DNA of 64,000 nucleotides from Nonomuraea rubra. GTDB lineage: Bacteria > Actinomycetota > Actinomycetes > Streptosporangiales > Streptosporangiaceae. A model generated the notes under the pieces. The model was not told the DNA's origin, did not search any database, and saw only the letters and a program-made list of their open reading frames with translations. The DNA lies in NCBI RefSeq assembly GCF_014207985.1, contig NZ_JACHMI010000001.1:3145001-3209000 (forward strand). The letters run 5' to 3'. The position numbers and the translations under genes are program-made. Of the stretch, positions 41,816-60,667 are shown piece by piece (the first letter of the stretch is position 1; each line of letters opens with the position of its first letter).

Positions 41816-43195
41816 TCACTTATGCGCCTCGGCCAGGGCCAGCAACGCGCTGGTGAACGCCTCCGCAGGCGGCTCCACCAGGCCCGCGCCGACCTGGCCC
41901 GTCCCCGCGATCCGGCCCGCGATGCCCGTGTTGACCACAGGCAGCAGGCCCGTCCGCGCCACCAGCGTCACGTCGATGCCGACCGGTGTGCCGCGGAAAC
42001 CGAGGCCGGGAATCTGGTAGACGGGATGCTCGGCGAGCGTGATCTCGTACATGGAGCGGGTGGCCCGCACCGCGTCCGCCACCTCGCCGCCGACGAACCG
42101 CACGATGGCCGGCGACGCCGCCATCGCGAACCCGCCCAGCCCCGACGTCTCCGTGATCGTGGAGTCGCCGATGTCCGGGTTGGCGTCCTGCGGGCCGTAC
42201 GAGCCGAGGTAGAGCCCGTCAGGCACCCCCGCCGGGCCCGTGAACCAGCGCCCGCCCAGCCCCGACACCTGGACGCCGAAGTCGGTGCCGTTCCTGGCCA
42301 TGGCCACGACCAGGGACGAGCCGGGCACGTCGCGGGCCGCGTCCGTGGCGGCCTTGGCCGCGGCCATCCCGAGGTTGAGGAAGAAGTGGTCGTTGCCGTT
42401 GACGAAGCGCAGCACCCCGGCCGCCGCGCCCGGCGCCGCCTCCACCACGGCCGGGGCCAGCTCGCGCAGCAGCAGCGAGGTGGCGGCCCTGTTGCGGTTG
42501 TGCAGCTCGTCGCCCATCTGCAGGGCCTGCGCGATCAGCGAGCGCAGGTCGATCGGGCCCGTACGCTCCAGCGTCGCCGCCAGCGCCGGGCCGAGCACCC
42601 GGTCCATCCAGCGCAGCCGGTCGAGCACCTCCGGGCCGTACGCGCCGTACCTGAGCACCTTGCCCAGGCCCTCGTTGAGCGAGCAGTACGCGGTGCCGCC
42701 GTGCTCGTCGTCGCGCACCTCGAACAGCCACATCGACGGGCTCACCACGCCCGCCATCGGGCCCACCGCCCCGTGCTCGTGGCAGGGGCGCAGCACGACC
42801 GCGCCCGCCGCCAGCCTGTCCGCGGCCTCGTGCTCGTCCGCGGCCCTGCCCTCCAGGAGCATGGCGCCGATCAGCGCGCCGCGCATCGGGCCCGAGGCGC
42901 GCTCCCAGGTGATGGGCGGGCCCGCGTGCAGGAACGTGTCCGCGCCGAGCAGCTCCGAGGCGCGCCGCACGCCCACCAGGTGCGGGCGGGCCGAGGTCAG
43001 CCTGCCCACGGCCAGCTCGTTGGCCGCCTGGCGGCGCGGGTCCGCCAGCACCGTGGCCAGGGCCTCGGCGGTGCCGGGCAGGGGCGGGCGCCAGGCGACC
43101 GGGGCCGTCGGCACGGCCTGCGCGCGCAGCGCCTCGTCGAGCAGGCCCGCGCCGACGGTGATCACGCGCGGGGAGGAGGTCAGCAGTGAGGTCAT
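41816..43195 (-). CDS. DUF1116 protein, AllG/YlbE-like (oxamate carbamoyltransferase subunit)
   Basis: 459 aa. DUF1116 family: ITWERASGPMRGALIGAMLL, CHEHGAVGPMAGVVSPSMWL and ELHNRNRAATSLLLREL, followed by NGNDHFFLNLGMAAAKA. In E. coli the homologue YlbE (AllG) works with FdrA and YlbF as the oxamate carbamoyltransferase that ends anaerobic allantoin degradation. The ATG overlaps the FdrA stop (ATGA). The role here is by family and context; the substrate could differ in an aerobic actinomycete. Last gene of the operon. Confidence 0.88.
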   Translation of the reverse strand: MTSLLTSSPRVITVGAGLLDEALRAQAVPTAPVAWRPPLPGTAEALATVLADPRRQAANELAVGRLTSARPHLVGVRRASELLGADTFLHAGPPITWERASGPMRGALIGAMLLEGRAADEHEAADRLAAGAVVLRPCHEHGAVGPMAGVVSPSMWLFEVRDDEHGGTAYCSLNEGLGKVLRYGAYGPEVLDRLRWMDRVLGPALAATLERTGPIDLRSLIAQALQMGDELHNRNRAATSLLLRELAPAVVEAAPGAAAGVLRFVNGNDHFFLNLGMAAAKAATDAARDVPGSSLVVAMARNGTDFGVQVSGLGGRWFTGPAGVPDGLYLGSYGPQDANPDIGDSTITETSGLGGFAMAASPAIVRFVGGEVADAVRATRSMYEITLAEHPVYQIPGLGFRGTPVGIDVTLVARTGLLPVVNTGIAGRIAGTGQVGAGLVEPPAEAFTSALLALAEAHK

Positions 43196-44571
43196 ACCAG
43201 GCTCCTGGCGTGGCGGGCGGCCTGGGCGTTGGAGGTGAAGACGGCGGCGCCCGCCTCGCGGAAGGCGGCGGCCTGGCGGTGCAGGTCCTGGGGGTCGCCC
43301 TCGGTGCCGATCAGGGCGATCACCACCGTGGCCGGGGTGCCGGCGACCGCGGGGGCCAGCGAGGCGGCCGGGTCGGGGTCGGCGCCGTGGCCCAGGACCA
43401 CGTCCATGAGCACCACGTCCCGCTCGCCGGCGCGGGCCAGCGCCTCCGCCCGCAGGGTCGGGTCGATCATCGGGTGTGCCCTGCCCCTGGTGTAGGCGTC
43501 GTCGCCGTAGTCGACGAAGTCGCCCTGGCCGGCGACCAGCGCGGCCTCGGTGCCCAGCGTGCCGCCCGAGTACAGGCCCCTGATCCGCTTGGGCGCGGGG
43601 CGCGTGCCTGGCGGGGCGGGCCAGGACGGCCACTCGGGGACGGGCCTGCCGAGGGCCCGCAACGCCTGCTCGGCGGCCTGCGTGAGATCCCCGGCCGGCG
43701 CGAGGCCGCCCGCCTGCGCGAGCGCGGGTGTGCCCAGCAGGACGGGCACCACGGGCGTGCGCAGCCGCTGCCCCAGCACCGCCCGGGCCACCTCGGGAGC
43801 GGGCGGCTTGGAGACGAGCACGATCAGCTCCGTGGCCGGGTCCTCGTCCAGCATGCGCAGCGCGCGCGCCGCCGACAGGCCGCCCACCTCGGCGGACAGG
43901 TCCCTGCCGCCCACCCCGAGCACGTGGCTCACGCCGGCGCCGGCCCGGTCGAGCAGGCACGTCACCTGCTGCGCCCCGGTGCCGGACGCGGAGACCACGC
44001 CGACGGGGCCGGGGGTGAGCACGTTCGCGAAGCCGAGCCCGGCGCCGCCGATCGCGGCGGTGCCGCAGTCGGGGCCCATGACCAGCACGTCCCTGGCCTC
44101 GGCCAGCTCCTTCAGCCGGCGTTCCTGGGCCACGGTGACGCCGTCGCTGAAGATCATGACGGGCAGGCCGGCCTCGATGGCGTCCAGGGCCTCGAAGAAG
44201 GCGTACTCGCCGGGGGTGGAGACCAGCACGAGGTCCGCGGGGCCGCGGGCGGCGGCCGAGCGGGTGGTCAGCGGCGGCTGCTCGTCGGAGCCGGTTCCCG
44301 GCCGGTCCACCTCGGTGAGCCGGCGCTCGGCCTCCTCGGCGGCCGCGTCCGGGTCCTTCGCCCGTACGGCGATCAGCAGGTCGCCCGGATCGGTCTCCGG
44401 GACGCCGAAGCCCATCTCCCGCAGGATCGAGACGTTGAGGTCCGTCGCCATGGCGACCATGGCCGCCTCCACGCCCGGCAGCTCCGACAGCGCCCGGCTG
44501 ACCCGCATGAGGGTGACCGAGTCGTGGTAGGCCCCCCGCCGTACCAGCACCGCCTGCGGCAGGCCGGTCAT
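43192..44571 (-). CDS. FdrA/AllF-like acyl-CoA-synthetase-fold protein
   Basis: 459 aa. Two CoA-ligase-like Rossmann modules: LVLVSTPGEYAFFEALDAIE, VMGPDCGTAAIGGAGLGFAN and VGVVSASGTGAQQV in the first half, then IRGLYSGGTLGTEAALVAGQ and VVLMDVVLGHGADPDPA in the second. This matches FdrA, the largest subunit of the oxamate carbamoyltransferase complex. ATGA overlaps join it to DUF2877 upstream and DUF1116 downstream, consistent with a stoichiometric complex. The frame stays open far upstream, but MTGLPQAVLVRRGAYHDSVT is the family start. Confidence 0.9.
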   Translation of the reverse strand: MTGLPQAVLVRRGAYHDSVTLMRVSRALSELPGVEAAMVAMATDLNVSILREMGFGVPETDPGDLLIAVRAKDPDAAAEEAERRLTEVDRPGTGSDEQPPLTTRSAAARGPADLVLVSTPGEYAFFEALDAIEAGLPVMIFSDGVTVAQERRLKELAEARDVLVMGPDCGTAAIGGAGLGFANVLTPGPVGVVSASGTGAQQVTCLLDRAGAGVSHVLGVGGRDLSAEVGGLSAARALRMLDEDPATELIVLVSKPPAPEVARAVLGQRLRTPVVPVLLGTPALAQAGGLAPAGDLTQAAEQALRALGRPVPEWPSWPAPPGTRPAPKRIRGLYSGGTLGTEAALVAGQGDFVDYGDDAYTRGRAHPMIDPTLRAEALARAGERDVVLMDVVLGHGADPDPAASLAPAVAGTPATVVIALIGTEGDPQDLHRQAAAFREAGAAVFTSNAQAARHARSLV

Positions 44572-45416
44572 CGCGCCCCGCTCAGCGACCGGACGGCGGC
44601 CACGCCGATGGCGATGCCCTGGGCCAGGTCGGCGCCCGAGGTGTGGCCGAGGCGGTGCAGGCGGCGCAGGGCGGGTTCGAGCGCCTGGCGGCCCGCGACG
44701 CCGCGCAGCACCCCGGTCACCTCGGGGCTGGCCTCGCCCCTGGCGGCGCAGTGCAGGAGCGTGGCCGAGATCGGCGTCGTACGCGTGCGCGCGTCGAACG
44801 TCACGGTCGCCGCCAGCCAGCCGGCCAGCCAGACCGCCTTCTCGCAGGCCGCCGCCGTGCCCAGGCGCCGCAGCGTCACCAGCAGCCCGGCCAGCACGTC
44901 GTCGCCGCTCGGCGTCAGCCCGGGGCCGAGCCCGACGAGCTGCTCCGCCGCCGTCACCGCTCCCAGCAGCCAGCCCTTCGCGCAGCTGCTCGCCAGCATG
45001 GCCACGGCGCCGTTGCCCGCCAGCCCGGCGCCCGGCGGGTCCGCCGGCAATTGGTCCTCCAGCCGGGCCGGATCGAGCCGCCCCAGCGGCGGGGCCGGAT
45101 CCCACCAGCGGCGCACGTTCAGGCTCAGCGGGCCGAGCTCGATCAGCCGGTCGCCCACCGAGGCGTCGTCACCCACCGTGAGGTGCGGCAGCGGCCCCGC
45201 GAGCAGCACCGAGTTCGGCAGCCGCGTGGCCTCGCCCGTGATGACGGCGATCACCGAGGGCTCCAGATCGGTCCTGACCTCCAGGTACACGCCCGCGGGG
45301 AACGCCGCGAGCACGCGCGCGGGGCGCCGCTGGGTTTCGAGGACGGGGCGGACCGAGGTGCTGGCCGCGCCCGTGACGTGGACGCGGGTACGCCGCGCGG
45401 AAGTACTGACGGTCAC
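44568..45416 (-). CDS. DUF2877 protein, AllH/YlbF-like
   Basis: 282 aa from GTG 45416, which has GGGAGG four to five bases upstream; the frame is open to a TTG at 45488, but the shorter form fits the family length. The DUF2877 signature LVGLGPGLTPSGDDVLAGLL is at about residue 180. In E. coli YlbF (AllH) is the third subunit of the oxamate carbamoyltransferase. First gene of the allH-F-G-like operon and divergent from the PucR regulator. Confidence 0.87.
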   Translation of the reverse strand: MTVSTSARRTRVHVTGAASTSVRPVLETQRRPARVLAAFPAGVYLEVRTDLEPSVIAVITGEATRLPNSVLLAGPLPHLTVGDDASVGDRLIELGPLSLNVRRWWDPAPPLGRLDPARLEDQLPADPPGAGLAGNGAVAMLASSCAKGWLLGAVTAAEQLVGLGPGLTPSGDDVLAGLLVTLRRLGTAAACEKAVWLAGWLAATVTFDARTRTTPISATLLHCAARGEASPEVTGVLRGVAGRQALEPALRRLHRLGHTSGADLAQGIAIGVAAVRSLSGAR

Positions 45417-45481
45417 CGGACCTCCCAACCGACCTTGGACCTGACCGTAGAACGGCCGGTGAACCCTCCGTACGGGTAAAT

Positions 45482-45514
45482 TTGCCAACAGTCAGCGGGT
45501 TGGTTGGCTCTTCC
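45482..45514. promoter_or_regulatory. Inverted repeat in the AllH/PucR divergent region
   Basis: GCCAAC and GTTGGT, nine bases apart, lie in the 130-bp divergent promoter region (about 45486-45512) and form the most obvious candidate for a PucR binding site. The assignment is tentative. Confidence 0.35.
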
Positions 45515-45546
45515 TGACAGACGGCTTCCGGGGTCACAATTTCCTC

Positions 45547-47157
45547 ATGGAGCCCCCCGTCCGTCTCGCCAGCACCGGCACGATCATCCACGGCGTTTCC
45601 GTGGGAGAGGTGCTCGGCGTGTCCACCCTCGCCGAGGCCAGGCTGATCGCGGGGGAGAGCGGGCTGGGCCGCATCGTGCAGCGGCTCAACGTCATGGAGG
45701 TGCCCGACATCCTGGCCTGGGTCAAGCCGCACGAGCTGCTGCTCACCACCGGCTACCCGCTGCGCAACACGCCGCAGTCGCTCGGCCGGCTGGTCGCCGA
45801 CCTCGACGAGCGCGGGCTGGCGGCGCTGGCCATCAAGCTGGGCCGCTACGTCGACGAGCTGCCCGCCGAGATGGTGGAGCAGGCCGACAGGCTCGGCTTC
45901 CCGCTCATCCTGCTGCCCAACGACGTCGGCTTCGACGACATCCTCAACCAGGTGCTCACCGACATACTCAACCGCCAGGCCGCCGTGCTCGCCCGCGCCG
46001 AGGAGGCGCACCGGGCGCTGGTCCAGGTGGTGCTGGCCGGCGGCGGCCTGGACGAGGTCACCGCGGAGGTGGCGCAGCTCCTCGACGTGGCGGTGGCGGC
46101 CGTGGACGGCTCCGGCCGCGTGCTGGCCACCGCAGGGCCCGGCGACCACGTGACCGTCCTGCGCGAGTCCATCTCCCGCGAGGGGCCGCCCACCTCGCCT
46201 CCCCGTACGCCCGCCGCGCGCGCCCGCTCGTTCGCCTCGGTGCCCGTGCTCGCCGGCGGCCACCACCACGGCAGGATCGTCGCCTACAGCCCCGCCGCGG
46301 CGATCAGGGACAGCGACGTCGGCATCCTGGAACGTGCCGCCACCGTCGCCGCCCTCGTCGTCACCCGGCAGGAGGCGGTCAACGCCGTCGAGAGCAAGTA
46401 CCGCGCCGACTTCCTGCGCGACGTGCTCACCGGCAGGGCCGGCACGGCGGAGCGGGTCACCGCCCGCGCGCGGGCGTTCGGCTGGGACCTGGCGCGGCCG
46501 GTGACCGTGCTGGTGGCCGAGCTCGACCCCGACGGCGACGAGCGCAGCGCCCAGGACCGCCTCGTCTCCTGCTGGACGGCCTCGATCAGGCGGCACGACC
46601 CGCACGGCGCCGTCGCCGGTTTCTCGCACGAGGTGGTGGCGGTCGTGGACGCCGCGCTCGACGCCGCCCGGGTGGCCAAGGACGCCGCCTCCGCCTTCGC
46701 CGACGTGCCGCCCGCCACGTTCTCCACCGGCACCTCCCGGCCCAGCCCCGGCGCGGAGACGCTGCCGGAGGCGTACTCGCAGGCGCTGAAGGCTGCCAGG
46801 GTGGGGCGGCAGCTGCATGGGCCGGGGGCGGTGGCGCACTTCGACCAGCTCGGCGTCTACCGGCTGCTGTCGCTGGTGAACGACACCGAGGAGCTGCACG
46901 CGTTCGTCCGCGAGACGCTGGGCCCGCTGGCCTCCGACGACGACGCCGAGAACGCCGACCTGCGGCGCACGCTGCAGTCGCTGCTGGAGACGAACCTGAA
47001 CGTCGCGGAGACGGCCAGGCGGCTGCACTTCCACTACAACACGCTGCGCTACCGGATCGGCAAGCTGGAGCGCCTGCTCGGCAACTTCACCGACGACCCG
47101 CACCTGCGGCTCAATCTCACGCTGGCCCTGCACGTGCTGCGGATGCGGGGCATCTAG
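45547..47157 (+). CDS. PucR-family transcriptional regulator
   Basis: 536 aa. N-terminal PucR domain (residues about 15-140; VSVGEVLGVSTLAEARLIAG, PDILAWVKPHELLLTTGYPL), a central GAF/GGDEF-like region, and a C-terminal PucR-type HTH at about 470-530 (LLETNLNVAETARRLHFHYN, TLRYRIGKLERLL). The Bacillus PucR founder controls purine catabolism. Divergent from the allH-F-G operon and upstream of nucleobase permeases and a molybdenum hydroxylase, so it is the obvious local regulator. CACAAT six bases before the ATG suggests a leaderless transcript. Confidence 0.93.
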   Translation: MEPPVRLASTGTIIHGVSVGEVLGVSTLAEARLIAGESGLGRIVQRLNVMEVPDILAWVKPHELLLTTGYPLRNTPQSLGRLVADLDERGLAALAIKLGRYVDELPAEMVEQADRLGFPLILLPNDVGFDDILNQVLTDILNRQAAVLARAEEAHRALVQVVLAGGGLDEVTAEVAQLLDVAVAAVDGSGRVLATAGPGDHVTVLRESISREGPPTSPPRTPAARARSFASVPVLAGGHHHGRIVAYSPAAAIRDSDVGILERAATVAALVVTRQEAVNAVESKYRADFLRDVLTGRAGTAERVTARARAFGWDLARPVTVLVAELDPDGDERSAQDRLVSCWTASIRRHDPHGAVAGFSHEVVAVVDAALDAARVAKDAASAFADVPPATFSTGTSRPSPGAETLPEAYSQALKAARVGRQLHGPGAVAHFDQLGVYRLLSLVNDTEELHAFVRETLGPLASDDDAENADLRRTLQSLLETNLNVAETARRLHFHYNTLRYRIGKLERLLGNFTDDPHLRLNLTLALHVLRMRGI

Positions 47158-47160
47158 GCT
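47155..47160 (+). promoter_or_regulatory. -10 element TAGGCT, eight bases before GTG 47169
   Basis: TAGGCT overlaps the PucR stop codon region and precedes the S4-protein GTG by eight bases; indicates a leaderless message. Confidence 0.45.
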
Positions 47161-47168
47161 GCTGCCTT

Positions 47169-47381
47169 GTGGAATCACTGGAATTCGAGCTGCGCGACGA
47201 GTACATCCCGCTGTGCGACCTGCTGAAGTACTGCGGCATCACCGAGACCGGCGGGATGGCCAAGCAGCTCATCGACGAGGGCTTCGTCCAGGTGGACGGC
47301 GAGGTGGAGCTGCGCAAGCGCGCCAAGATCAGGGCGGGGCAGGTGGTCAGCGGCGACGGGTTCGAGATCCACGTCGCCTAG
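47169..47381 (+). CDS. Small S4-domain RNA-binding protein (YbcJ-like)
   Basis: 70 aa, single S4 RNA-binding domain: YIPLCDLLKYCGITETGGMA, KQLIDEGFVQVDGEVELRKR and AKIRAGQVV. The GTG at 47169 is chosen because the N-terminus VESLEFELRDEYIPL is what the family shows and no other start fits. It lies 11 bp after the PucR stop. Members of this group bind structured RNA; the exact function is unknown and a link to the nucleobase locus is not implied. Confidence 0.88.
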   Translation: MESLEFELRDEYIPLCDLLKYCGITETGGMAKQLIDEGFVQVDGEVELRKRAKIRAGQVVSGDGFEIHVA

Positions 47382-47470
47382 CCGGTGCGTGAGCACGCGA
47401 CGGCACCCTCTATTGTGCTCTCCAGCATCAAACAGGAGACATACCCGCAGTTCAGGCGGGAGATCGAGGT

Positions 47471-48784
47471 GTGTTCGTGGCGCTGGGGTGGAAGGTGCAC
47501 GGCGATGGGAAGCGCCTGACGCCGGGTGAGGTGGTCAAGCCGGACGAGCGGCTGAGCTGGCCCAGGATGGTGGGCATCGGGGCGCAGCACGTGATCGCGA
47601 TGTTCGGCGCGACGTTTGTCTTCCCGCTGGTCATGGGCCTGGACGCGAACCTCGCCGTGATGATGTCCGGCGTCGCGACGATCCTGTTCCTGCTGATCGT
47701 GAAGGGCAAGGTGCCCAGCTACGTCGGGTCGAGCGCGTCCTTCGTCGGCGCCGTCGTGGCGATCAGGGCGGCCGGGGGAGGCGACGCGACCGTCACCGGG
47801 GCGCTGCTCGTCGTCGGGCTGGTGCTGGCCGCGTGCGGGTTCGCCATCCACAAGCTGGGCGTCGGCGTCATCCACCGGGTGTTCCCGCCGATCGTGACCG
47901 GCGGGGTGGTGATGCTCATCGGGTTCGGGATGGCGTACGTGGCGGCGGACGTCTACTGGCCGAAGGACCCGTGGGTGGCGCTGCTGACGATGGCGGCCAC
48001 GTTCGTCTTCATCGGGGTGTTCAAGGGCTTCCTCGGCCGGATCGGCGTGCTGCTCGGGCTCGTCTTCGGGTTCCTGCTGTCCTGGGCCTGGGACCTCGTG
48101 GGCGGGCCGATCACGGCGCCCGACGACAGCGGCCGGGTGACCGAGCACTTCCGGGTGAGCCTGGAAGCGGTGGCGCAGGCCGACTGGATCGGGCTGCCGT
48201 CGCTGCACGGGCCCGTGTTCGAGGTGTCGGCCATCGTGCTGGTGCTGCCCGTGGTGATCGCGCTGATCGCCGAGAACGTCGGGCACGTCAAGGCCGTCGG
48301 CGAGATGACCGGCGCCGACGTCGACGCCTACATGGGACGGGCTGTCATGGCCGACGGCGTCGGCACCGTCGTGGCCACCTCCGTGGGCGGCTCCGCGACG
48401 ACCACGTACGCCGAGAACATCGGCGTCATGGCGGCCACCAAGGTGTACTCGACCGCCGCCTACTACATCGCGGCCGTCATCGCGATCCTGTTCGGGCTCT
48501 GCCCCAAGTTCGGCGCGCTCATCGCGGCCACGCCCGGCGGGGTGCTGGGCGGCGTGACGACCATCCTGTACGGCATGATCGGCCTGCTCGGCGCCAAGAT
48601 CTGGATCGAGAACAAGGTCAACCTGTCCGAGCCGGGCAACCTCGTGCCGACCGGCGCCGGCATCATCTGCGCCATCGGCCCCGTCGCCTTCCCGATCACC
48701 GACACCTTCGCGCTCAGCGGCATCGCGCTCGGCACGATCGTGCTGCTCGTCGGCTACCACCTGCTCCGCGCCGTACGGCGGTAG
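47471..48784 (+). CDS. NCS2 nucleobase permease (uracil/xanthine type), copy 1
   Basis: 437 aa, about 14 membrane helices. The NCS2 signature reads TTYAENIGVMAATKVYS; a leading Glu in E-N-x-G-x4-T-K is typical of uracil (UraA/RutG-like) carriers, whereas xanthine carriers mostly have Gln there. Other motifs: GAQHVIAMFGATFVFPLVMG and CPKFGALIAATPGGVLGGVT. GTG 47471 has GGAG seven bases upstream. Proton-coupled uptake of a pyrimidine or purine base is expected. The next gene is a close paralogue. Confidence 0.93.
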   Translation: MFVALGWKVHGDGKRLTPGEVVKPDERLSWPRMVGIGAQHVIAMFGATFVFPLVMGLDANLAVMMSGVATILFLLIVKGKVPSYVGSSASFVGAVVAIRAAGGGDATVTGALLVVGLVLAACGFAIHKLGVGVIHRVFPPIVTGGVVMLIGFGMAYVAADVYWPKDPWVALLTMAATFVFIGVFKGFLGRIGVLLGLVFGFLLSWAWDLVGGPITAPDDSGRVTEHFRVSLEAVAQADWIGLPSLHGPVFEVSAIVLVLPVVIALIAENVGHVKAVGEMTGADVDAYMGRAVMADGVGTVVATSVGGSATTTYAENIGVMAATKVYSTAAYYIAAVIAILFGLCPKFGALIAATPGGVLGGVTTILYGMIGLLGAKIWIENKVNLSEPGNLVPTGAGIICAIGPVAFPITDTFALSGIALGTIVLLVGYHLLRAVRR

Positions 48785-48789
48785 CCCCT

Positions 48790-48812
48790 CACACGGCGCC
48801 CGCGCCCGTGTG
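48790..48812 (+). terminator. Hairpin after first NCS2 gene
   Basis: CACACGG (48790-48796) and CCGTGTG (48806-48812) form a seven-base stem with a GC-rich loop, 6 bp after the stop. Confidence 0.5.
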
Positions 48813-48933
48813 CGCGAGGTTCTCTCTGGTCGGCGGGTCAGATTTGGCAGATCATGCCCGTGTAGGAGCGTGCCACCGGGCCTAATGTGCCCGCAAACGG
48901 TACGCCCAGGCGCCCGGCACAAGAGGGGCTCGC

Positions 48934-50346
48934 ATGGTTGTGGGATGGACCAAGCACGGTGATGGCAAGCGACTGGCCCCCGGCGAGGTGGTCAGGCCCG
49001 ACGAGAGACTGACCTGGCCCCGGATGGTGGGGTTCGGGGCGCAGCACGTGATCGCGATGTTCGGCGCGACGTTCGTCTTCCCGCTGGTCATGGGGCTGGA
49101 CCCGAACGTGGCCGTGATGATGTCCGGCGTCGCGACGATCCTGTTCCTGCTCATCGTGAAGGGGAAGGTGCCCAGCTACCTGGGCACCAGCGCGTCCTTC
49201 GTCGGCGGCGTGTTCGCGATCAGGGCGGCGGCCGGCGGCGACACCGGCGGCGCGGACGCGATCGTGACCGGCGCCATCCTGGTCGCCGGGCTCGTCCTGG
49301 CGCTGGCCGGGCTGGCCATCCACTTCCTCGGCGTGCAGATCATCCACCGGGTCTTCCCGCCCGTGGTCACCGGCGCGGTCGTGATGCTGATCGGGTTCGG
49401 GCTGGCGTTCGTGGTGGCGGACGTGTACTGGCCGCAGGACCACTGGGTGGCGCTCGTCACGATGCTGATCACGTTCGTGGTGATCGTGGCGTTCAAGGGG
49501 TTCATCGGGCGGATCGGGGTGCTGGTCGGGCTGGTGGCCGGGTTCGTGCTGTCGTGGGTGCTGGACAGGGTGGCGGGGCCGGTCACGTCCGTGCTGCCCG
49601 GCGCCAACCTGCGGGACGCCGCGGGGAACGCCTGCCCGGCCGAGGGCATGTACTGCGTGGCGACGGCCTTCCCGCACGACCGGGTGAGCTTCCAGTCGGT
49701 GGCCGACGCGCCGTGGTTCGGGCTGCCGAGCTTCCACGCGCCCGACTTCAGGACCTCGGCCGTGCTGCTGGTGCTGCCCGCCGTGATCGCGCTGATCGCG
49801 GAGAACATCGGGCACGTCAAGGCCGTCGGGGAGATGACCGGGACGGACGTGGACCCGTACGTGGGCCGCGCCGTCATGGCCGACGGCGTCGGCACCGTGG
49901 TCACCAGCGCCGTCGGCGGCTCGCCCACCACCACCTATGCCGAGAACATCGGCGTCATGGCGGCCACCAAGGTGTACTCGACCGCCGCCTACTACATCGC
50001 CGGCGTCATCGCGATCCTGTTCGGGCTCTGCCCCAAGTTCGGCGCGCTCGTCGCGGCCACGCCCGGCGGCGTGCTCGGCGGCGTGACCGTGATCCTCTAC
50101 GGGATGATCGGGCTGCTCGGCGCGAAGATCTGGATCGAGAACCGGGTGAACTTCGCCGATCCCGTGAACATGGTTCCGATCGGGGCGGGAATCATCCTGG
50201 CCATCGGACCTGTGAAGCACTTCATCGGCGGCGATTTCACGCTCGAGGGCATCGCGCTCGGCACGCTCGTGGTGCTGGGCGGCTACCACCTGCTGCGGGC
50301 CATCGCGGGCCGCAGCTCCGAGCCCGTCAGGAGCGAGGCAGGGTGA
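48934..50346 (+). CDS. NCS2 nucleobase permease, copy 2
   Basis: 470 aa. Same family and signature as the upstream copy (TTYAENIGVMAATKVYS; GAQHVIAMFGATFVFPLVMG), with about 30 extra residues in the loop around 225-255 (LPGANLRDAAGNACPAEGMY). Near identity of many stretches shows a tandem duplication. AGAGGGG precedes the ATG. Its TGA overlaps the GTG of the molybdenum hydroxylase FAD subunit (GTGA), so transport and oxidation of the base are translationally coupled. Confidence 0.93.
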   Translation: MVVGWTKHGDGKRLAPGEVVRPDERLTWPRMVGFGAQHVIAMFGATFVFPLVMGLDPNVAVMMSGVATILFLLIVKGKVPSYLGTSASFVGGVFAIRAAAGGDTGGADAIVTGAILVAGLVLALAGLAIHFLGVQIIHRVFPPVVTGAVVMLIGFGLAFVVADVYWPQDHWVALVTMLITFVVIVAFKGFIGRIGVLVGLVAGFVLSWVLDRVAGPVTSVLPGANLRDAAGNACPAEGMYCVATAFPHDRVSFQSVADAPWFGLPSFHAPDFRTSAVLLVLPAVIALIAENIGHVKAVGEMTGTDVDPYVGRAVMADGVGTVVTSAVGGSPTTTYAENIGVMAATKVYSTAAYYIAGVIAILFGLCPKFGALVAATPGGVLGGVTVILYGMIGLLGAKIWIENRVNFADPVNMVPIGAGIILAIGPVKHFIGGDFTLEGIALGTLVVLGGYHLLRAIAGRSSEPVRSEAG

Positions 50347-51173
50347 AGCCGCCGCCGTTCACCTACCACGCGCCCCGCGACCTCCCCGCGGCGCTGCGCA
50401 CGCTCGCGGGGGTCGGCGGGAAGGTGCTGGCAGGTGGGCAGAGCCTCATCCCGATGCTCAACATGCGGCTGGCCGCGCCCGGGCATCTCGTGGACATCAA
50501 CCGGGTGGCCGGGCTCGACGGCATCGAGGTGACCCCCGCCGGGGTGACGGTGGGGGCGCTGGCCCGGCACGCGGACGTCGAGCGGGCCGGGGTGCACCCG
50601 CTGCTCACCCGGGCGCTCAAGCTGGTGGCCCACCCGGTGATCCGCAACCGGGGGACCGTGGTGGGCAGCCTCGTGCACGCCGACCCCGCCGCCGAGCTGC
50701 CCGCCGTGCTGGCGGTGCTGGGCGGGCACGTACGGGTGGCCCGCTGGGACGGAGGCATCACCATGCGGGACGTCCCGGCCGGGGAGTTCTTCGTCGGGCC
50801 CATGGAGTCGGCGGTCGAGCCGGGCGAGCTGGCCGTGTCAGCGTTTTTCCCGGCATTGGGAGAAGGGGCCGGGGCCGCGTTCGAGGAGGTGGCGCGGCGG
50901 CACGGCGACTACGCGCTGGCGGGCGTGTGCGCCGTGGTCGCCCCGGACGCCGCCAGGGTCGCTCGCATCGGGGTCGGCACGCGGCCCGTCGTGGTCGAGC
51001 TGAACGGGCATCAGGCTGACTGGCGGGAGGCGGCGGCCCTCGTGCGGGACGCGACCGAGCCGGAAGGCGACATCCACGCCTCCGCCGCCTACCGCAGGCA
51101 CCTGGTGGGCGTGCTGGCCGAGCGGGCGCTGCGCGACGCGGCGCGGGAAGGGGCGGCGGCCCGTGGATCATGA
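50343..51173 (+). CDS. Xanthine dehydrogenase family FAD subunit
   Basis: 276 aa. FAD-binding subunit of a molybdenum hydroxylase: KVLAGGQSLIPMLNMRLAAP (FAD loop, about residue 33) and IRNRGTVVGSLVHADPAAEL (about 105), then the CO_deh_flav_C domain. The GTG start overlaps the permease stop by GTGA, and the 3' end overlaps the 2Fe-2S subunit by 11 bp. It passes electrons from the Fe-S clusters to NAD or another acceptor. Confidence 0.93.
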   Translation: MKPPPFTYHAPRDLPAALRTLAGVGGKVLAGGQSLIPMLNMRLAAPGHLVDINRVAGLDGIEVTPAGVTVGALARHADVERAGVHPLLTRALKLVAHPVIRNRGTVVGSLVHADPAAELPAVLAVLGGHVRVARWDGGITMRDVPAGEFFVGPMESAVEPGELAVSAFFPALGEGAGAAFEEVARRHGDYALAGVCAVVAPDAARVARIGVGTRPVVVELNGHQADWREAAALVRDATEPEGDIHASAAYRRHLVGVLAERALRDAAREGAAARGS

Positions 51174-51642
51174 GATCACCCTCGTCGTGAACGGCACGGC
51201 CAGGCGGTGCCGCGTCCCCGCGCGGCGGCTGCTGTCCGACTGCCTGCGCCACGACCTCGGCCTGACCGGCACGCACGTGGGCTGCGAGCACGGCGTCTGC
51301 GGCTGCTGCACGGTGCTGCTCGACGGGCGGCCCGTACGGTCGTGCCTGACGTTCGCCGTGACCGTGGACGGCGCCGAGATCACCACCGTGGAGGGGCTGG
51401 CCGGGCGGGACGGCGGGATGTCGGCCGTGCAGCGGGCGTTCGCCGAGTGCCACGGGCTGCAGTGCGGCTTCTGCACGCCCGGCTTCCTGTGCACGGTGAC
51501 GGCCCTGCTGGAGGAGAACCCGGCCCCCACGGACGACGAGGTGATCGACGGCATCTCGGGCAACCTGTGCCGCTGCACCGGCTACCAGAACATCGTCAAG
51601 GCCGTCCACCGGGCCGCCGAGCTGCTGGCGGAGGAAGCATGA
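51163..51642 (+). CDS. Xanthine dehydrogenase family 2Fe-2S subunit
   Basis: 159 aa. Plant-type [2Fe-2S] domain with GCEHGVCGCCTVLLDG at about residues 40-55 and the second, helical cluster domain with CGFCTPG and CRCTGYQNIV. All eight cluster cysteines are present. GTG start inside the end of the FAD gene and an ATGA overlap with the molybdenum subunit. Confidence 0.95.
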   Translation: MDHEITLVVNGTARRCRVPARRLLSDCLRHDLGLTGTHVGCEHGVCGCCTVLLDGRPVRSCLTFAVTVDGAEITTVEGLAGRDGGMSAVQRAFAECHGLQCGFCTPGFLCTVTALLEENPAPTDDEVIDGISGNLCRCTGYQNIVKAVHRAAELLAEEA

Positions 51643-53990
51643 CGACCAGGCTGTTCGGGGAGGCCGTACAGCGGCGCGAGGACCCCAGGCTGCTCACCGG
51701 GCAGGGCCGCTACCTCGACGACCTGGGCCGCGAGGCGCTGGCCGCGGCGTTCGTGCGCTCGCCGCACGCCCACGCCCGCGTCCGCGACATCGACGTGGCG
51801 GGCGCGCTCGACGTGGAGGGGCTCGTCGCCGTCTACACCTGGGAGGACCTGCCCGAGCGGGTCGGCCGGGCGCTGCCGCTGCTCATCCCGCACCCCGCGC
51901 TCACGCACGGGCGCACCGCCTACCCGCTGGCCAGGGACGTCGTCAGGCACGTCGGCGAGCCGGTGGTCATGGTGGTGGCCACCGACCGGTACGCCGCCGA
52001 GGACGCCTGCGCGCTCATCGAGGTCGACTACGAGCCGCTCAAGCCCGTCGTCGGCATCGAGGAGGCCGTCCAGGGGGCGCAGCTCGTGCACGAGGACGTG
52101 CCGGGGAACGTCGGCGCGCACCTCGTCCAGGAGGTCGCGGACGCCGGCGGGCGCGGCGCCAGGGAGGCCATCGAGACCGCGCCGCACACGCTCGCCTTCA
52201 GGCTCGACATCGAGCGCAGCGCGAGCATGCCGCTGGAGGGCCGCGGCGTGTACGCCCGCTGGGACGGCCGCGACCTGCGCGTCTACTCCAGCACCCAGAC
52301 CTCCACCAGCGTGCGCATGGCCGTGGCCGCCGCGCTCGGCCTGCCGCTGCCGCAGGTCGAGGTGATCGCGCCCGACGTGGGCGGCGGCTTCGGGGTGAAG
52401 ATCGTGCACCCGTGGCCGGAGGAGGTGCTGGTCCCGTGGGCCGCCATGACGCTCGGGCGGGAGATCAAGTGGACCGAGGACCGCAGGGAGCACTTCATCT
52501 CCTCGGCGCACGAACGGGGGCAGGTGCAGTACGTGCGGGTCGGGTTCGACGACGACGGGCGCGTGCTGGGGCTGGACGTGACGATCCTGCACGACCACGG
52601 CGCCTACACCCCGTACGGGATCATCATCCCGATCGTCACCTCGACGCAGTTGCTGGGGCCGTACAAGCCGGGCTCGTACCGGGTGGAGTTCACCGCCGTC
52701 TACACCAACACCGTGCAGGTGACGCCCTACCGGGGGGCGGGGCGGCCCCAGGGCGTGTTCTGCATGGAACGCACGATGGACAAGATCGCCCGGTACCTGG
52801 GCAAGGACCGCACCGAGGTGCGGGCGGCCAACTTCATCGGGCCCGGGGAGTTCCCGTACGACCAGGGGATGACCTTCCAGGACGGGCGGCCGCTGATCTA
52901 CGACAGCGGCGACTACCCCGAGATGCTGCGGATGATCAAGGAGCTGATCGGCTGGGACGACTTCGAACGCCGGCCGGGCCTCGGGATCGGGATCGGGTGC
53001 TACGTCGAGGGCACCGGCGTGGGGCCGTACGAGGGCGGGCACGTGCAGATCACCTCCGACGGCCGCGTCCACGTCTCCACCGGCCTCACCTCGCAGGGGC
53101 AGGGGCACGAGACGGCGTTCGCCCAGATCGCGGCGACCGAGCTGGGCGTGCCCATCGAGCGGGTCAGCGTGGTGACCGGCGACACCCGCAGGTTCGGCTA
53201 CGCGGTCGGCACCTTCGCCTCCAGGGCGGCCGTCGTCAGCGGCAACGCCATCGCGCTGGCGTGCAGGAAGGTGCGCGAGAAGGCGCTGCGGATCGCCGCC
53301 GACGCGCTGGAGGCCAACCCGGACGACCTGGACATCGCCGAGGGCATCGTGCACGTGGCCGGGGCGCCGTCCGCCGCCATCCCGCTGTCCACGGTGGCGG
53401 TGCTGGCCAACCCGCTGCGGTACGCCTTCGACGAGGAGACCGCGAAGGCCACCCAGTTCGCGGGCGCCGCCGCCCCCGACCGGCCGCCCGTCGCCGAGGG
53501 GGAGGAGCCGGGGCTGGAGGGGCGCGGCTACTACTCGCCGATCAGGTCCACGTTCGCGGCCGGCATGCACGCCGCCGTCGTCGAGACCGACCCCGACACC
53601 GCCGAGATCAGGGTCCTGCGCTACGCCGTCGTGCACGACTGCGGGCGGCTGATCAACCCCATGATCGTGGAGGGCCAGATCCACGGCGGGGTGGCCCAGG
53701 GCATCGGCGGCGCGCTGTACGAGCGCATGGTCTACGACCAGCACGGGCAGCTCGTGAACGCCTCCTTCATGGACTTCCTCATGCCGTACGCCACCGAGAT
53801 CCCCCACGTCGAGACCGCTCACCTGGAGACGCCGTCGCCGCTCAACCCCCTGGGCATCAAGGGCGCGGGCGAGGCCGGCGTGATCCCCGTCTCCGCCGTC
53901 ATCGCTTCGGCCGTCGAGGACGCCGAGGGCATCGAGATCAACCGCATGCCGATCTCGCCGTCCGAGCTGTTCGAGCTGCGTATGGGATGA
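51639..53990 (+). CDS. Xanthine dehydrogenase family molybdenum-cofactor subunit
   Basis: 783 aa. Large subunit binding the molybdopterin cofactor: DVGGGFGVKIVHPWPEEVL, PYRGAGRPQGVFCMERTMD, TGLTSQGQGHETAFAQIAA and the catalytic Glu in GIKGAGEAGVIPVSAVI. The active-site loop is YRGAGRPQ, not AYRCSFR, so this is not a form-I CO dehydrogenase. With nucleobase permeases and a PucR regulator next to it, a purine such as hypoxanthine or xanthine is the likely substrate; other N-heterocycles or aldehydes cannot be excluded. No maturation factor (XdhC, Moco genes) is in the window. Confidence 0.92.
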   Translation: MTTRLFGEAVQRREDPRLLTGQGRYLDDLGREALAAAFVRSPHAHARVRDIDVAGALDVEGLVAVYTWEDLPERVGRALPLLIPHPALTHGRTAYPLARDVVRHVGEPVVMVVATDRYAAEDACALIEVDYEPLKPVVGIEEAVQGAQLVHEDVPGNVGAHLVQEVADAGGRGAREAIETAPHTLAFRLDIERSASMPLEGRGVYARWDGRDLRVYSSTQTSTSVRMAVAAALGLPLPQVEVIAPDVGGGFGVKIVHPWPEEVLVPWAAMTLGREIKWTEDRREHFISSAHERGQVQYVRVGFDDDGRVLGLDVTILHDHGAYTPYGIIIPIVTSTQLLGPYKPGSYRVEFTAVYTNTVQVTPYRGAGRPQGVFCMERTMDKIARYLGKDRTEVRAANFIGPGEFPYDQGMTFQDGRPLIYDSGDYPEMLRMIKELIGWDDFERRPGLGIGIGCYVEGTGVGPYEGGHVQITSDGRVHVSTGLTSQGQGHETAFAQIAATELGVPIERVSVVTGDTRRFGYAVGTFASRAAVVSGNAIALACRKVREKALRIAADALEANPDDLDIAEGIVHVAGAPSAAIPLSTVAVLANPLRYAFDEETAKATQFAGAAAPDRPPVAEGEEPGLEGRGYYSPIRSTFAAGMHAAVVETDPDTAEIRVLRYAVVHDCGRLINPMIVEGQIHGGVAQGIGGALYERMVYDQHGQLVNASFMDFLMPYATEIPHVETAHLETPSPLNPLGIKGAGEAGVIPVSAVIASAVEDAEGIEINRMPISPSELFELRMG

Positions 53991-58288: not shown

Positions 58289-59335
58289 TCATGTCAAGGG
58301 GGGCGGCGGGGCGGTGGAGGCGCGGACCACCAGCTCGTGCCGGGTGCGGCGCCGGCGCGGCCGGGACGCCGGCGGCCTGAGCACCAGCTCCAGCGCCTGC
58401 TTGCCCATCCCCACCATCGGCAGCCGCACCGTGGTCAGCGCCGGGTACACGTCCCGCGCCACCGGCACGTCGTCGAACCCGGCCACCGAGATCTCGTCCG
58501 GCACCCGCCGTCCGTGGTTGAGCAGCCACGACAGCGCCCCCACCGCCATCGGGTCGTTCAGCGCGACCACCGCCGTCAGGCCGGGATGCGCCCGCACCAG
58601 CCGCGCGGTGGCGGCCGCGCCGCCCTCCCGGGTGAAGTCGCCGTGCACGACCGGCACCGCGCCCCAGTCGAGCCCGGCCGCGCCGAACGCCGCCCGCAGC
58701 CCCGCCAGCCGGTCCTCCACCGTGGTCAGGTTGGCGGGCCCGCCGAGCACCCCCAGGCGGCGGTGGCCCAGGTCGAGCAGGTGCCGCATGAGCGTGGCGC
58801 CGCCGGCGGCGTTGTCGGGCAGCACCGCGTCCACCGGCAGGTGGTGGCGGCCGATCACCGCGACCCGGCCGCCCGCCGCGGTGAACGAGCGCAGCTCGGC
58901 CGCGATGTCGGTCTCCGTGCCGGCCTCGACGTAGCCGGACCCGGCCAGCACGATCGAGGTCACCCGGTGCGCGCGCAGGGCGCGGATGCGGGCCAGCTCC
59001 GCCCGCGGGTCACGCTCGGTCTGGCTGATCAGCGCCAGGTAGCCGCGGCTGTCGGTCTCGCGCAGCACGCCCCTGGCGATCTCGCCGAAGTACGGGTCGC
59101 CCACGTCGTGCACGATCAGCCCCACCATGGAGGCCTGCCCGCCGGCCAGCGCCCGCGCGTGGCTGTTGGGCACGTACCCGACCTGGGTGGCGATCGCCTG
59201 GACGTGCGCCGCGACCTCGGCGCTCACCCCCGCGCCGCCGTTCATCGCCCGCGAGGCCGTCGCCAGCGAGACCCCGGCGGCCTGGGCGACGTCGATCAAC
59301 CGGGGCGGGGAGGTCGGGGAAGGTCGCTTCGCCAT
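58289..59335 (-). CDS. LacI-family transcriptional regulator
   Basis: 348 aa. N-terminal LacI HTH (LIDVAQAAGVSLATASRAMN, residues 13-32) and hinge helix (NSHARALAGG), then a periplasmic-binding-type sugar sensor domain (VGLIVHDVGDPYFGEIARGV). Palindromes of the expected type lie in front of the dehydrogenase and of the ABC transporter, so it most likely represses both. ATG 59335; the frame is open far upstream but without homology. Confidence 0.94.
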   Translation of the reverse strand: MAKRPSPTSPPRLIDVAQAAGVSLATASRAMNGGAGVSAEVAAHVQAIATQVGYVPNSHARALAGGQASMVGLIVHDVGDPYFGEIARGVLRETDSRGYLALISQTERDPRAELARIRALRAHRVTSIVLAGSGYVEAGTETDIAAELRSFTAAGGRVAVIGRHHLPVDAVLPDNAAGGATLMRHLLDLGHRRLGVLGGPANLTTVEDRLAGLRAAFGAAGLDWGAVPVVHGDFTREGGAAATARLVRAHPGLTAVVALNDPMAVGALSWLLNHGRRVPDEISVAGFDDVPVARDVYPALTTVRLPMVGMGKQALELVLRPPASRPRRRRTRHELVVRASTAPPPPLT

Positions 59336-59383
59336 GTGGTGCGGACCCCCTTGTCCGGGGCGGAATCCCGTGTAATCGTAACC

Positions 59384-59407
59384 GAAAGCGCTTCCGAAAG
59401 CGCTTTC
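59384..59407. promoter_or_regulatory. Two adjacent LacI-type operators before the ABC transporter
   Basis: GAAAGCGCTTCC (59384-59395) and GAAAGCGCTTTC (59396-59407) lie side by side in the divergent region between lacI and the transporter operon, 31 bp before the substrate-binding protein start. The second matches the operator at 58247 exactly. Confidence 0.82.
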
Positions 59408-59437
59408 GCTCCGCCTCTTCTGACGGGGGTCTCCTCG

Positions 59438-60667
59438 ATGGCAAGAGTCCGCACGACCCTGACGATCATCTCCATCTGCGCATTGGCCCTCACCGCGTGC
59501 GCGAAGACCGACGAACCCGGCGCGGCACAGTCGCCGGGACAGCAGCAGGGGCCGGTCAAGATCGGCATCTCGCTCCCGCTCACCGGCGACTTCTCCGAGC
59601 CGGGCAAGGGCATCCAGGAGGGGTACCAGGTCTGGGCGGACCAGGTGAACGCCAGGGGCGGCCTGCTCGGCAGGAAGGTCGAGCTGATCTTCCGCGACGA
59701 CGCCTCCGATCCCAACCGGGTCAGCTCCGACTACGAGTCCCTCATCACGCAGGACAAGGTCAACCTGGTCTTCGGGCCGTTCTCCTCGCGCCTGGTGATC
59801 CCCGCGGCCAAGGTCGCCGAGTCGTACGGCATGCTCTTCGTCGAGCCGGCCGGAGCCGCGGCCGAGGTGTTCGAGCAGGGCTTCACCCGGCTGTTCTACG
59901 CGGCGCCCGCGATCGCGAGCGACCACTACAACTACCTGGCCGACTACATCCTGAAGCTGCCGGCGGACCAGAGGCCGAAGACGGCGGCGTACGCCAGCCT
60001 GGACGACCCGTTCGCCCAGGGCACCGCGTACGGCCTGCGCGACAAGCTGGCCGCGGCCGGCGTCAAGACCGTGGTGGACGAGGTGTACCCGCCGGAGACC
60101 ACCGACTTCGCCCCCATCGCCGCCAAGATCGCCGCCGCCAAGCCGGACCTGGTGGTGGGCGGCACGCAGTTCGAGGACTCGGTCGGCCTGGTGCGCGCGC
60201 TGCAGGAGCTGAAGGTGCAGCCCAAGCTGGCGGCGTTCTCGACGGGGCCGACGCTGGCGGAGTTCCCCGCCGCGGTGAAGGGGGCGGCCGAGCACATCCT
60301 GTCGCCGGTCGGCTGGTCCTCCACCGCGACGTTCACCGGCAACCAGGAGATGGTCAAGCGCTACAAGGAGCTGTTCGGCGGCGAGGCCAACGAGGACGCG
60401 GCCAACGGCTACACCGTCGGCCAGATCGTCGAGGCCGCCGTGAACGCCGTCAAATGCGTCGATCCCACCAAGGAGTGCCAGGACAAGCTGACCCAGCACA
60501 TCAGGCAGGGCACGTTCGACACCGTCGTCGGGCCGCTGTCCTTCGACGACAAGGGCAGGCCGGAGCAGGCGCACATGATCCAGCAGTACGTCAACGGCAA
60601 GGTCGAGATCGTCCTCCCCGAGCAGGCCAAGACCGCCTCCATCGTGTACCCGAAGCAGGAATGGTGA
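59438..60667 (+). CDS. ABC transporter substrate-binding lipoprotein (branched-chain amino acid type)
   Basis: 409 aa. Lipoprotein signal with lipobox LTAC (residue about 21). Type-I periplasmic-binding fold of the HAAT/LivJ group: VKIGISLPLTGDFSEPGKGI, LLGRKVELIFRDDASDPNRV and DGYTVGQ-like ANGYTVGQIVEA. These proteins bind amino acids, amides, urea or aromatic acids; this one could have an unusual ligand because it is under LacI control. First gene of a five-gene operon; ends inside the next gene's start (7-bp overlap). Confidence 0.92.
   Translation: MARVRTTLTIISICALALTACAKTDEPGAAQSPGQQQGPVKIGISLPLTGDFSEPGKGIQEGYQVWADQVNARGGLLGRKVELIFRDDASDPNRVSSDYESLITQDKVNLVFGPFSSRLVIPAAKVAESYGMLFVEPAGAAAEVFEQGFTRLFYAAPAIASDHYNYLADYILKLPADQRPKTAAYASLDDPFAQGTAYGLRDKLAAAGVKTVVDEVYPPETTDFAPIAAKIAAAKPDLVVGGTQFEDSVGLVRALQELKVQPKLAAFSTGPTLAEFPAAVKGAAEHILSPVGWSSTATFTGNQEMVKRYKELFGGEANEDAANGYTVGQIVEAAVNAVKCVDPTKECQDKLTQHIRQGTFDTVVGPLSFDDKGRPEQAHMIQQYVNGKVEIVLPEQAKTASIVYPKQEW

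Follow-up and report, generated by a model that had tools for sequence, protein, structure and literature searches.

Several described systems lie close to the locus analyzed here (PMC numbers are PubMed Central identifiers). The AllFGH complex of Escherichia coli converts oxalurate to oxamate and carbamoyl phosphate, and the purified complex was assayed as a carbamoyltransferase with carbamoyl phosphate and oxamate (PMC11326118). The oxidative pathway of pyrimidine breakdown leads from uracil through barbiturate to 3-oxo-3-ureidopropanoate (ureidomalonate), the product of barbiturase, which belongs to the AtzD family; a separate ureidomalonase then yields urea and malonate (PMC3758960, PMC7662398). 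AllFGH genes have also been described in nitrifiers together with biuret and triuret genes and interpreted as serving oxalurate use, and the string "barbitur" occurs 0 times in the available text of that paper (PMC12625717). Here we analyze a 64,000-nucleotide stretch of Nonomuraea rubra (the window; contig NZ_JACHMI010000001.1, G000:C1:3145001-3209000 of a 12.88-Mb genome) in which genes for an AllFGH-like complex stand beside two NCS2 nucleobase permeases and a molybdenum (Mo) hydroxylase.

We propose, with a probability of roughly 0.77, that this locus encodes the larger part of an oxidative pathway for uracil, and perhaps thymine, that would run through barbiturate and end in carbamoyl phosphate. 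From the gene families, their order and co-occurrence, the barbiturase signature, and the nearest solved relatives we infer the following reactions and their regulation. The permeases would import uracil, and the Mo hydroxylase, with its flavin adenine dinucleotide (FAD) and 2Fe-2S subunits, would oxidize C6 of uracil to generate barbiturate. Barbiturase would open the ring to give ureidomalonate; the genes for this ring opener and for some accessory proteins lie within ~50 kb to the right of the block. Ureidomalonate is oxalurate lengthened by one CH2, and comparison of the two structures suggests malonamate and carbamoyl phosphate as the homologous products. The AllFGH-like complex would thus cleave an N-acylurea by phosphorolysis, with ureidomalonate and inorganic phosphate (Pi) yielding malonamate and carbamoyl phosphate, the counterpart of the E. 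coli conversion of oxalurate and Pi. Carbamate kinase would turn carbamoyl phosphate into ATP, NH3, and CO2, whereas malonate would be released from malonamate by a malonamidase or, possibly in this order, by a Nit2-like hydrolase. PucR would control both divergent units.

The proposed system resembles that of E. coli in having the same three families in one operon, a carbamate kinase linked in relatives, and the same predicted type of reaction (N-acylurea + Pi <-> amide + carbamoyl phosphate). It differs in the predicted substrate and in its neighbors, which are uracil-type permeases, a Mo hydroxylase, and a more distant barbiturase instead of allantoin genes. Moreover, the window AllG is 49% identical to E. 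coli YlbE, and in the AllG tree the barbiturase-linked sequences group in a clade that is separate from E. coli. The described oxidative pathway shares the route from uracil to ureidomalonate and a barbiturase-type AtzD; the window would add candidate genes for the first oxidation and a phosphorolytic, energy-conserving last cut instead of the release of urea. With the nitrifier systems it shares AllFGH and carbamate kinase in the absence of known upstream purine genes.

Results

Barbiturase and its association with AllG and the Mo hydroxylase

The AtzD-family gene of N. rubra lies outside the window, ~50 kb to the right of AllG. Its best solved match is annotated "Barbiturase" (5hwe, 574.6 bits), whereas the best cyanuric acid hydrolase (CAH) scores 321 bits. 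Barbiturases, group VI of the AtzD family, are characterized by Asn195, His321, Lys325, Val345, and Ser/Ala346 (AtzD numbering), sites at which AtzD has Arg, Thr, Arg, Gly, and Gly (PMC3758960); the same paper assigns Rhodococcus erythropolis to the barbiturases. The N. rubra protein carries N, H, K, V, and A at these positions, which is the full barbiturase signature; judged by its residues, the protein is a barbiturase and not a CAH. The ring opener that matches the locus is this barbiturase and not an allantoinase.

The signature was compared across 62 rows, in which several genomes are entered twice. N-H-K-V is found in 52 rows, with A (34), G (11), or S (7) at the last site. Six rows read R-T-R-G-G (G199 and G340 with their duplicates, and a Raoultella plasmid), and four match neither signature (G330 and G341 with their duplicates). 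One barbiturase residue is called glutamine in PMC4051656 and Asn in PMC3758960; 5hwe and the 52 rows of barbiturase type have Asn there. The AtzD loci numbered L035-L054 represent the best-scoring 20 of 91. G199 and G340, the two genomes with a CAH-type AtzD, have no AllG and no Mo subunit over the cut-off. Near the AtzD of G199 lies a biuret amidohydrolase (NF050097, 422.8 bits against a cut-off of 370), as expected for a cyanurate pathway. This isochorismatase-type gene had been considered as a ureidomalonase and was rejected on both grounds, the CAH-type AtzD and the biuret amidohydrolase score. The divergent AtzD proteins of G330 and G341, with N-GGG and an incomplete signature, were not counted as barbiturases. 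Mo hydroxylase genes adjoin the divergent AtzD and an amidase in G330 (L199:5677-12048), a genome in which no AllG was found.

If the N. rubra AtzD homologue were a CAH, the AllFGH-like complex would act on 1-carboxybiuret. A Raoultella plasmid that combines a CAH-type AtzD with NCS2, AllH, FdrA, AllG, and carbamate kinase gives this idea some footing, but the fully barbiturase-type signature and the barbiturase as closest solved protein make it extremely unlikely for the window.

AllG, AtzD, and the Mo subunit are distributed together. Among 150 genomes of the order, AllG is present in 91 and AtzD in 91; 89 genomes have both and 57 have neither (Fisher p 2e-36, shared ancestry ignored). The exceptions are G096 and G121, which have AllG alone, and G021 and G004, which have AtzD alone. 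The Mo subunit exceeds the cut-off of its model (NF040766) in 90 of the 150 genomes, 88 of which have AllG and AtzD, and the next Mo paralogue reaches 621 bits as against at least 1422 for those over the cut-off. In 22 genomes selected because a single long contig carries all three genes, the gene order (AllG - Mo subunit - AtzD) and the orientation of each gene were conserved in all 22, over spans of 22-107 kb. Of 296 genomes sampled from the phylum, 21 have an AllG of the strong class (300 bits or more), and another 15 have a weak one alone. The Mo subunit is over its cut-off in 19 of the 21 (all but G187 and G214) and AtzD is present in 14, every one of which carries the Mo hydroxylase. AtzD was found in none of the 15 weak-AllG genomes.

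The initial annotation had linked the locus to purines and proposed a search for allantoinase and urate oxidase elsewhere in the genome. Both are present in a purine cluster at ~8.43 Mb, 5.2 Mb away, that encodes uricase, HIU hydrolase, OHCU decarboxylase, allantoinase, and allantoicase. A purine or allantoin reading of the locus was rejected in view of this separate cluster, which includes its own allantoicase. The same cluster bears on the idea that the complex is a true oxamate/oxalurate carbamoyltransferase that ends allantoin breakdown, as in E. coli. The Pfam family names AllG and AllH and the identity to YlbE are consistent with such a function; the distant allantoinase with its allantoicase and uricase, the tracking of AllG with barbiturase and the Mo hydroxylase, and the separate clade argue against it, and we regard it as very unlikely.

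The AllFGH-like complex

All three families, AllF, AllG, and AllH, are encoded together in the window, and two 4-base ATGA overlaps join the trio. The FdrA (AllF) protein scores 373.1 bits with NF004760, below the cut-off of 433, and is therefore called FdrA-like; its best solved relative is 3dmy, "Protein fdrA" (224.6 bits). A structure model of AllG recovers 3clq alone, a solved protein of unknown function. The start of the AllH-like gene is uncertain, as its open frame extends to 45488. The complex probably transfers carbamoyl groups and acts on a substrate other than oxamate. This agrees with the initial annotation, which had linked a carbamoyltransferase of this type to nucleobase uptake and oxidation and had allowed for a substrate other than oxamate.

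Ureidomalonate is favored as the substrate because the carbamate kinase encoded beside AtzD and the malonamidase-like amidases described below fit its predicted products; free urea as a product would call for neither enzyme. In the classical oxidative pathway, a separate ureidomalonase would release urea and malonate, and the FdrA complex would serve elsewhere, for example in the activation of malonate with coenzyme A (CoA). This is the route described in PMC3758960 and PMC7662398, and FdrA resembles the alpha chain of succinyl-CoA synthetase. However, the stretch of the window FdrA that aligns with GHAGA of that chain contains no His, carbamoyltransferase assays were done on the purified E. 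coli complex (PMC11326118), and the kinase and amidases are better explained by carbamoyl phosphate and malonamate as products than by urea. We consider the classical arrangement unlikely.

The Mo hydroxylase and the permeases

The large subunit of the Mo hydroxylase is best matched by the model "CODH_aero_grp5" (NF040766; cut-off 950) and thus shares a sequence family with group 5 of the aerobic carbon monoxide dehydrogenases (CODH). It is set apart by the lack of the form I active-site loop and by its regular company of barbiturase and AllFGH. Form I CODH has the active-site motif AYxCSFR, whereas the loop of the window subunit reads PYRGAGR and is without the Cys. Among solved proteins, its closest relatives are quinoline 2-oxidoreductase (439 bits), 6-hydroxypseudooxynicotine dehydrogenase (431 bits), and aerobic CODH (429 bits). 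The best xanthine dehydrogenase scores 162 bits, so the enzyme is not closest to purine hydroxylases, contrary to the view in the initial annotation that the hydroxylase suggests purines. Quinoline 2-oxidoreductase hydroxylates the carbon that adjoins a ring nitrogen. Uracil/thymine dehydrogenase is classified as EC 1.17.99.4, and we know of no sequence assigned to it.

The two NCS2 permeases are 76.7% identical over 433 amino acids. Their scores with the uracil permease model (247 and 260 bits) exceed those with pbuX (154 and 162 bits), all under the cut-offs, and permease 1 scores 343 bits with the RutG model, likewise under the cut-off. By score, the permeases resemble uracil permeases more than xanthine permeases, in line with the uracil-type signature given in the initial annotation. 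The mismatch that it saw between these permeases and the hydroxylase dissolves if the hydroxylase acts on uracil. Uracil is the likely substrate because the Mo enzyme is nearly inseparable from barbiturase and AllFGH, uracil-type permeases are encoded upstream, the nearest solved relative is quinoline 2-oxidoreductase, and the purine cluster is separate.

Alternatively, the Mo hydroxylase may act on another N-heterocycle or an aldehyde, or be a CO dehydrogenase, and be merely co-located. The NCBIfam name for an aerobic CODH large subunit, assigned well over its cut-off, and the CoxG-like genes that follow the Mo subunit in several loci fit this possibility. The near one-to-one co-occurrence with barbiturase and AllG, the loop lacking the Cys, and the overlap of a uracil-type permease gene with the FAD gene oppose it, and we judge it rather unlikely.

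Carbamate kinase, malonamidase, and later steps

Of the 91 genomes of the order that have AtzD, 59 carry a carbamate kinase of a distinct type next to it; the two genes share a strand in all 59 genomes and lie no more than 200 bases apart in 57. This kinase is separated from the arginine-deiminase type by score to a single query (at least 356 as against at most 243 bits), and it was shown by no AtzD-less genome among the 150, with at most 15 candidates scored in each. Five kinases from deep-branching clusters pass the carbamate kinase model NF009007 and fall just under TIGR00746 (331-347 versus 358).

Two cluster amidases were searched against solved proteins. Malonamidase E2 is the best relative of both (242 and 247 bits), ahead of the next amidase (148 and 142 bits), as expected if malonamate is formed. 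Scores above 300 bits in the malonamidase search of the order were found solely in G001, G002, G004, and G006, with at most 11 candidates scored per genome. The best solved relative of a carbon-nitrogen hydrolase of the region (L003:10842-11618) is Nit2, at 100 bits. Between the Mo genes and AtzD of N. rubra, the interval G000:C1:3216479-3225512 encodes HyuA, HyuB, a family III CoA-transferase, and a carboxyltransferase; genes like this set are present in G061 and G090. The CoA-transferase and carboxyltransferase could possibly convert malonate to acetyl-CoA.

Conservation of the locus

In a scan with one genome per species, the best 80 loci by AllG were taken, many of them shortened by contig ends. 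All but one of the 80 (79) are actinobacterial; the other comes from a metagenome-assembled genome (MAG) that is Spirochaetaceae by title. Profile searches detected FdrA in 79 of these loci, PucR in 68, AllH in 67, NCS2 in 65, and the FAD, 2Fe-2S, and Mo subunits in 65, 64, and 62, respectively. In a subset of 38 loci, defined by an AllG match that begins 9,990 bases or more from the locus start, PucR is divergent in all 38, and PucR, NCS2, and the FAD subunit lie on the same side in 35. The arrangement is thus beyond chance. A doubled permease, read from the match listing, occurs in 6 of the 80 loci, all from Nonomuraea. The closest named record met was Nonomuraea gerenzanensis, with 94.8% identity for AllG and 98.1% for AtzD.

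Other loci bring these genes into closer proximity. A stretch of ~24 kb on a plasmid of Embleya sp. carries AllFGH, PucR, NCS2, Mo genes, CoxG, AtzD, and carbamate kinase, together with a carboxyltransferase and a family III CoA-transferase. An Actinomycetota MAG (L133) has AtzD, NCS2, kinase, AllH, FdrA, AllG, and Mo genes, and a Nitriliruptoraceae MAG (L112) has the same set without the Mo genes, at a contig end.

Ten deep-branching actinobacterial loci were read (L092-L099, L108, and L109). AtzD is present in eight, and the genomes of L108 and L109 have it on another contig. Carbamate kinase is present in eight (exceptions, L097 and the cut L108), as are Mo genes (exceptions, L092, where they lie just outside, and L095, where they are on another contig); PucR is found in seven. 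The transporter is mostly NCS2, replaced in L095 and L097 by an NMT1/THI5-type ATP-binding cassette (ABC) system. CoxG follows the Mo subunit in L093, L094, L096, L097, L099, and L108, an amidase occurs in L094, L099, and L109, and HyuA in L097 and L109. Genes for PF00383 deaminases in L098 and L202 suggest a possible step from cytosine to uracil. Genes of deep loci that lacked a profile label were first assigned from protein starts; this is the sole basis for three of the kinases (L093, L095, and L109) and for the deaminase-like gene that comes first in L109. The gene calling used here misses genes: AtzD of L111 was overlooked at the first pass, and AllH of L095 and L096 was uncalled.

AllFGH with other ring openers

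The Raoultella plasmid (L244; NZ_MZ753460.1 29772-37413) encodes, one after another, a CAH-type AtzD, NCS2, AllH, FdrA, AllG, carbamate kinase, and a LysR regulator; the annotation of the 21 kb read includes no Mo hydroxylase. This operon suggests that its AllFGH acts on 1-carboxybiuret. The presence of a Mo hydroxylase with the barbiturase type and of none annotated on the Raoultella plasmid is what would be expected of an AllFGH that accepts whatever N-acylurea its ring opener supplies. An AtzD 46.6% identical to that of N. rubra occurs in at least 18 records, mostly from Citrobacter, Klebsiella, Enterobacter, Leclercia, and Raoultella (among 20 listed of 132). On an E. coli plasmid (L246; NZ_CP104593.1 100522-107732), a cysteine hydrolase, AllH, FdrA, AllG, carbamate kinase, and a cytosine permease are encoded in a stretch without annotated AtzD.

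A full-text literature search revealed no link between AllFGH and barbiturase in the titles and abstract starts of the matches listed; most subscription literature falls outside its scope. Among the full texts searched, "barbitur" and "fdrA" stand together solely in PMC11792554, which by its title is a chicken virus study.

Observations that weigh against the pathway

Several observations count against the proposed pathway. The initial annotation called for a search for carbamate kinase elsewhere in the genome; two full-length genes were indeed found, but both sit in arginine-deiminase operons. They could serve, but the N. rubra genome has no barbiturase-type carbamate kinase, and its AllFGH operon has no carbamate kinase at all. 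Among 18 genomes of the genus, the dedicated kinase is present in one (G123), and no kinase of any type was shown for G111 and G136, in which 15 of 36 and 15 of 40 candidates were scored. No clear malonamidase was detected among the 11 of 54 N. rubra candidates scored (best, 168 bits and 37%). HyuA and HyuB, which are frequent in the region, have no role in the proposed scheme.

Some genomes retain parts of the set. AllFGH, PucR, and NCS2 are kept in G096, where the AllG match is shortened, without AtzD or a Mo subunit over the cut-off. AtzD and the Mo subunit are present in G021, which lacks AllG and the kinase. G004 has AtzD, the Mo subunit, and kinase, on short contigs, without a detected AllG, so the kinase is not strictly coupled to AllG. 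The Mo subunit is below the cut-off in G006, a genome that is 77% complete. AllG occurs without AtzD or a Mo subunit over the cut-off in G187 and G214, and no carbamate kinase or PucR was called in L097, whose cluster includes an asparaginase-family gene. The Raoultella plasmid, which pairs AllFGH and kinase with a cyanuric-acid-type AtzD, indicates that AllFGH is not tied to barbiturate alone. AtzD is absent from five further genomes in which AllG and the Mo subunit are present (G162, G177, G181, G284, and G306); four of the five were placed in the AllG tree and form a clade (100/99).

PF04199-type cyclases lie near AllG at L102:5482-6279, L103:4854-5660, and L104:8023-8805, in three of these five genomes with the Mo subunit and without AtzD. 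Such a cyclase is a possible candidate for a replacement ring opener.

Features of the locus

The gene set, the overlaps, and the divergent PucR gene given in the initial annotation were confirmed by profile search and coordinates. Its gene order held as far as the genes named are concerned; it omitted an S4-domain gene between PucR and the permeases (Table 1). Overlaps of 4 (GTGA), 11, and 4 (ATGA) bases connect the genes for permease 2 and the FAD, 2Fe-2S, and Mo subunits. Farther to the right (window positions 58289-63967), a LacI-like regulator, so assigned by its protein start, is divergent from a branched-chain/amide-type ABC transporter composed of a binding protein, two permeases, and two ATPases.

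Table 1 Features of the N. rubra locus; positions are those of the window unless a genome coordinate is given.
Feature	Position	Strand	Basis
AllG-like (YlbE/DUF1116), predicted ureidomalonate:phosphate carbamoyltransferase subunit	41816..43195	-	PF06545, 323.6 bits
FdrA-like (AllF) subunit	43192..44571	-	NF004760, 373 bits; Ligase_CoA
AllH-like (YlbF/DUF2877) subunit	44568..45314	-	PF11392, 96 bits
PucR-family regulator, divergent from AllFGH-like genes	45547..47157	+	PF07905, PF17853, PF13556
S4-domain gene, between PucR and permeases	47169-47381	+	PF13275
NCS2 nucleobase permease 1, uracil-type by score	47471..48784	+	PF00860
NCS2 permease 2	48934..50346	+	PF00860; GTGA overlap with FAD subunit gene
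Mo hydroxylase FAD subunit	50343..51173	+	PF00941, PF03450
Mo hydroxylase 2Fe-2S subunit	51163..51642	+	PF01799, PF00111
Mo hydroxylase large subunit, candidate uracil (thymine) dehydrogenase	51639..53990	+	NF040766, 1464.8 bits
Barbiturase-type AtzD, outside window	G000:C1:3237783-3238874		Sole AtzD-family gene of genome, E 1e-145

Discussion

The initial interpretation of this locus was partly supported: the complex appears to be carbamoyl-transferring and probably has a new substrate, and it would serve pyrimidines rather than purines. If the proposed pathway is correct, the Mo hydroxylase genes are candidates for the uracil dehydrogenase of the oxidative pathway, and an energy-conserving last cut replaces or complements the ureidomalonase step that releases urea. 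The automatic names "aerobic CO dehydrogenase" and "oxamate carbamoyltransferase" probably mislead here. A pathway that was called rare in 2013 (PMC3758960) would be common in one actinobacterial order, in which 89 of 150 genomes carry both AllG and AtzD.

It is tempting to extend this scheme to the whole family. AllFGH may constitute a general N-acylurea:phosphate carbamoyltransferase family that works with different ring openers, acting on oxalurate from allantoin, on ureidomalonate with barbiturase, and on 1-carboxybiuret with CAH, and the Mo enzymes of "CODH group 5" may be uracil dehydrogenases. We see the chances of this broader proposal as evenly balanced. If it is true, ring nitrogen would be recovered as carbamoyl phosphate, and pyrimidine and triazine rings would yield ATP.

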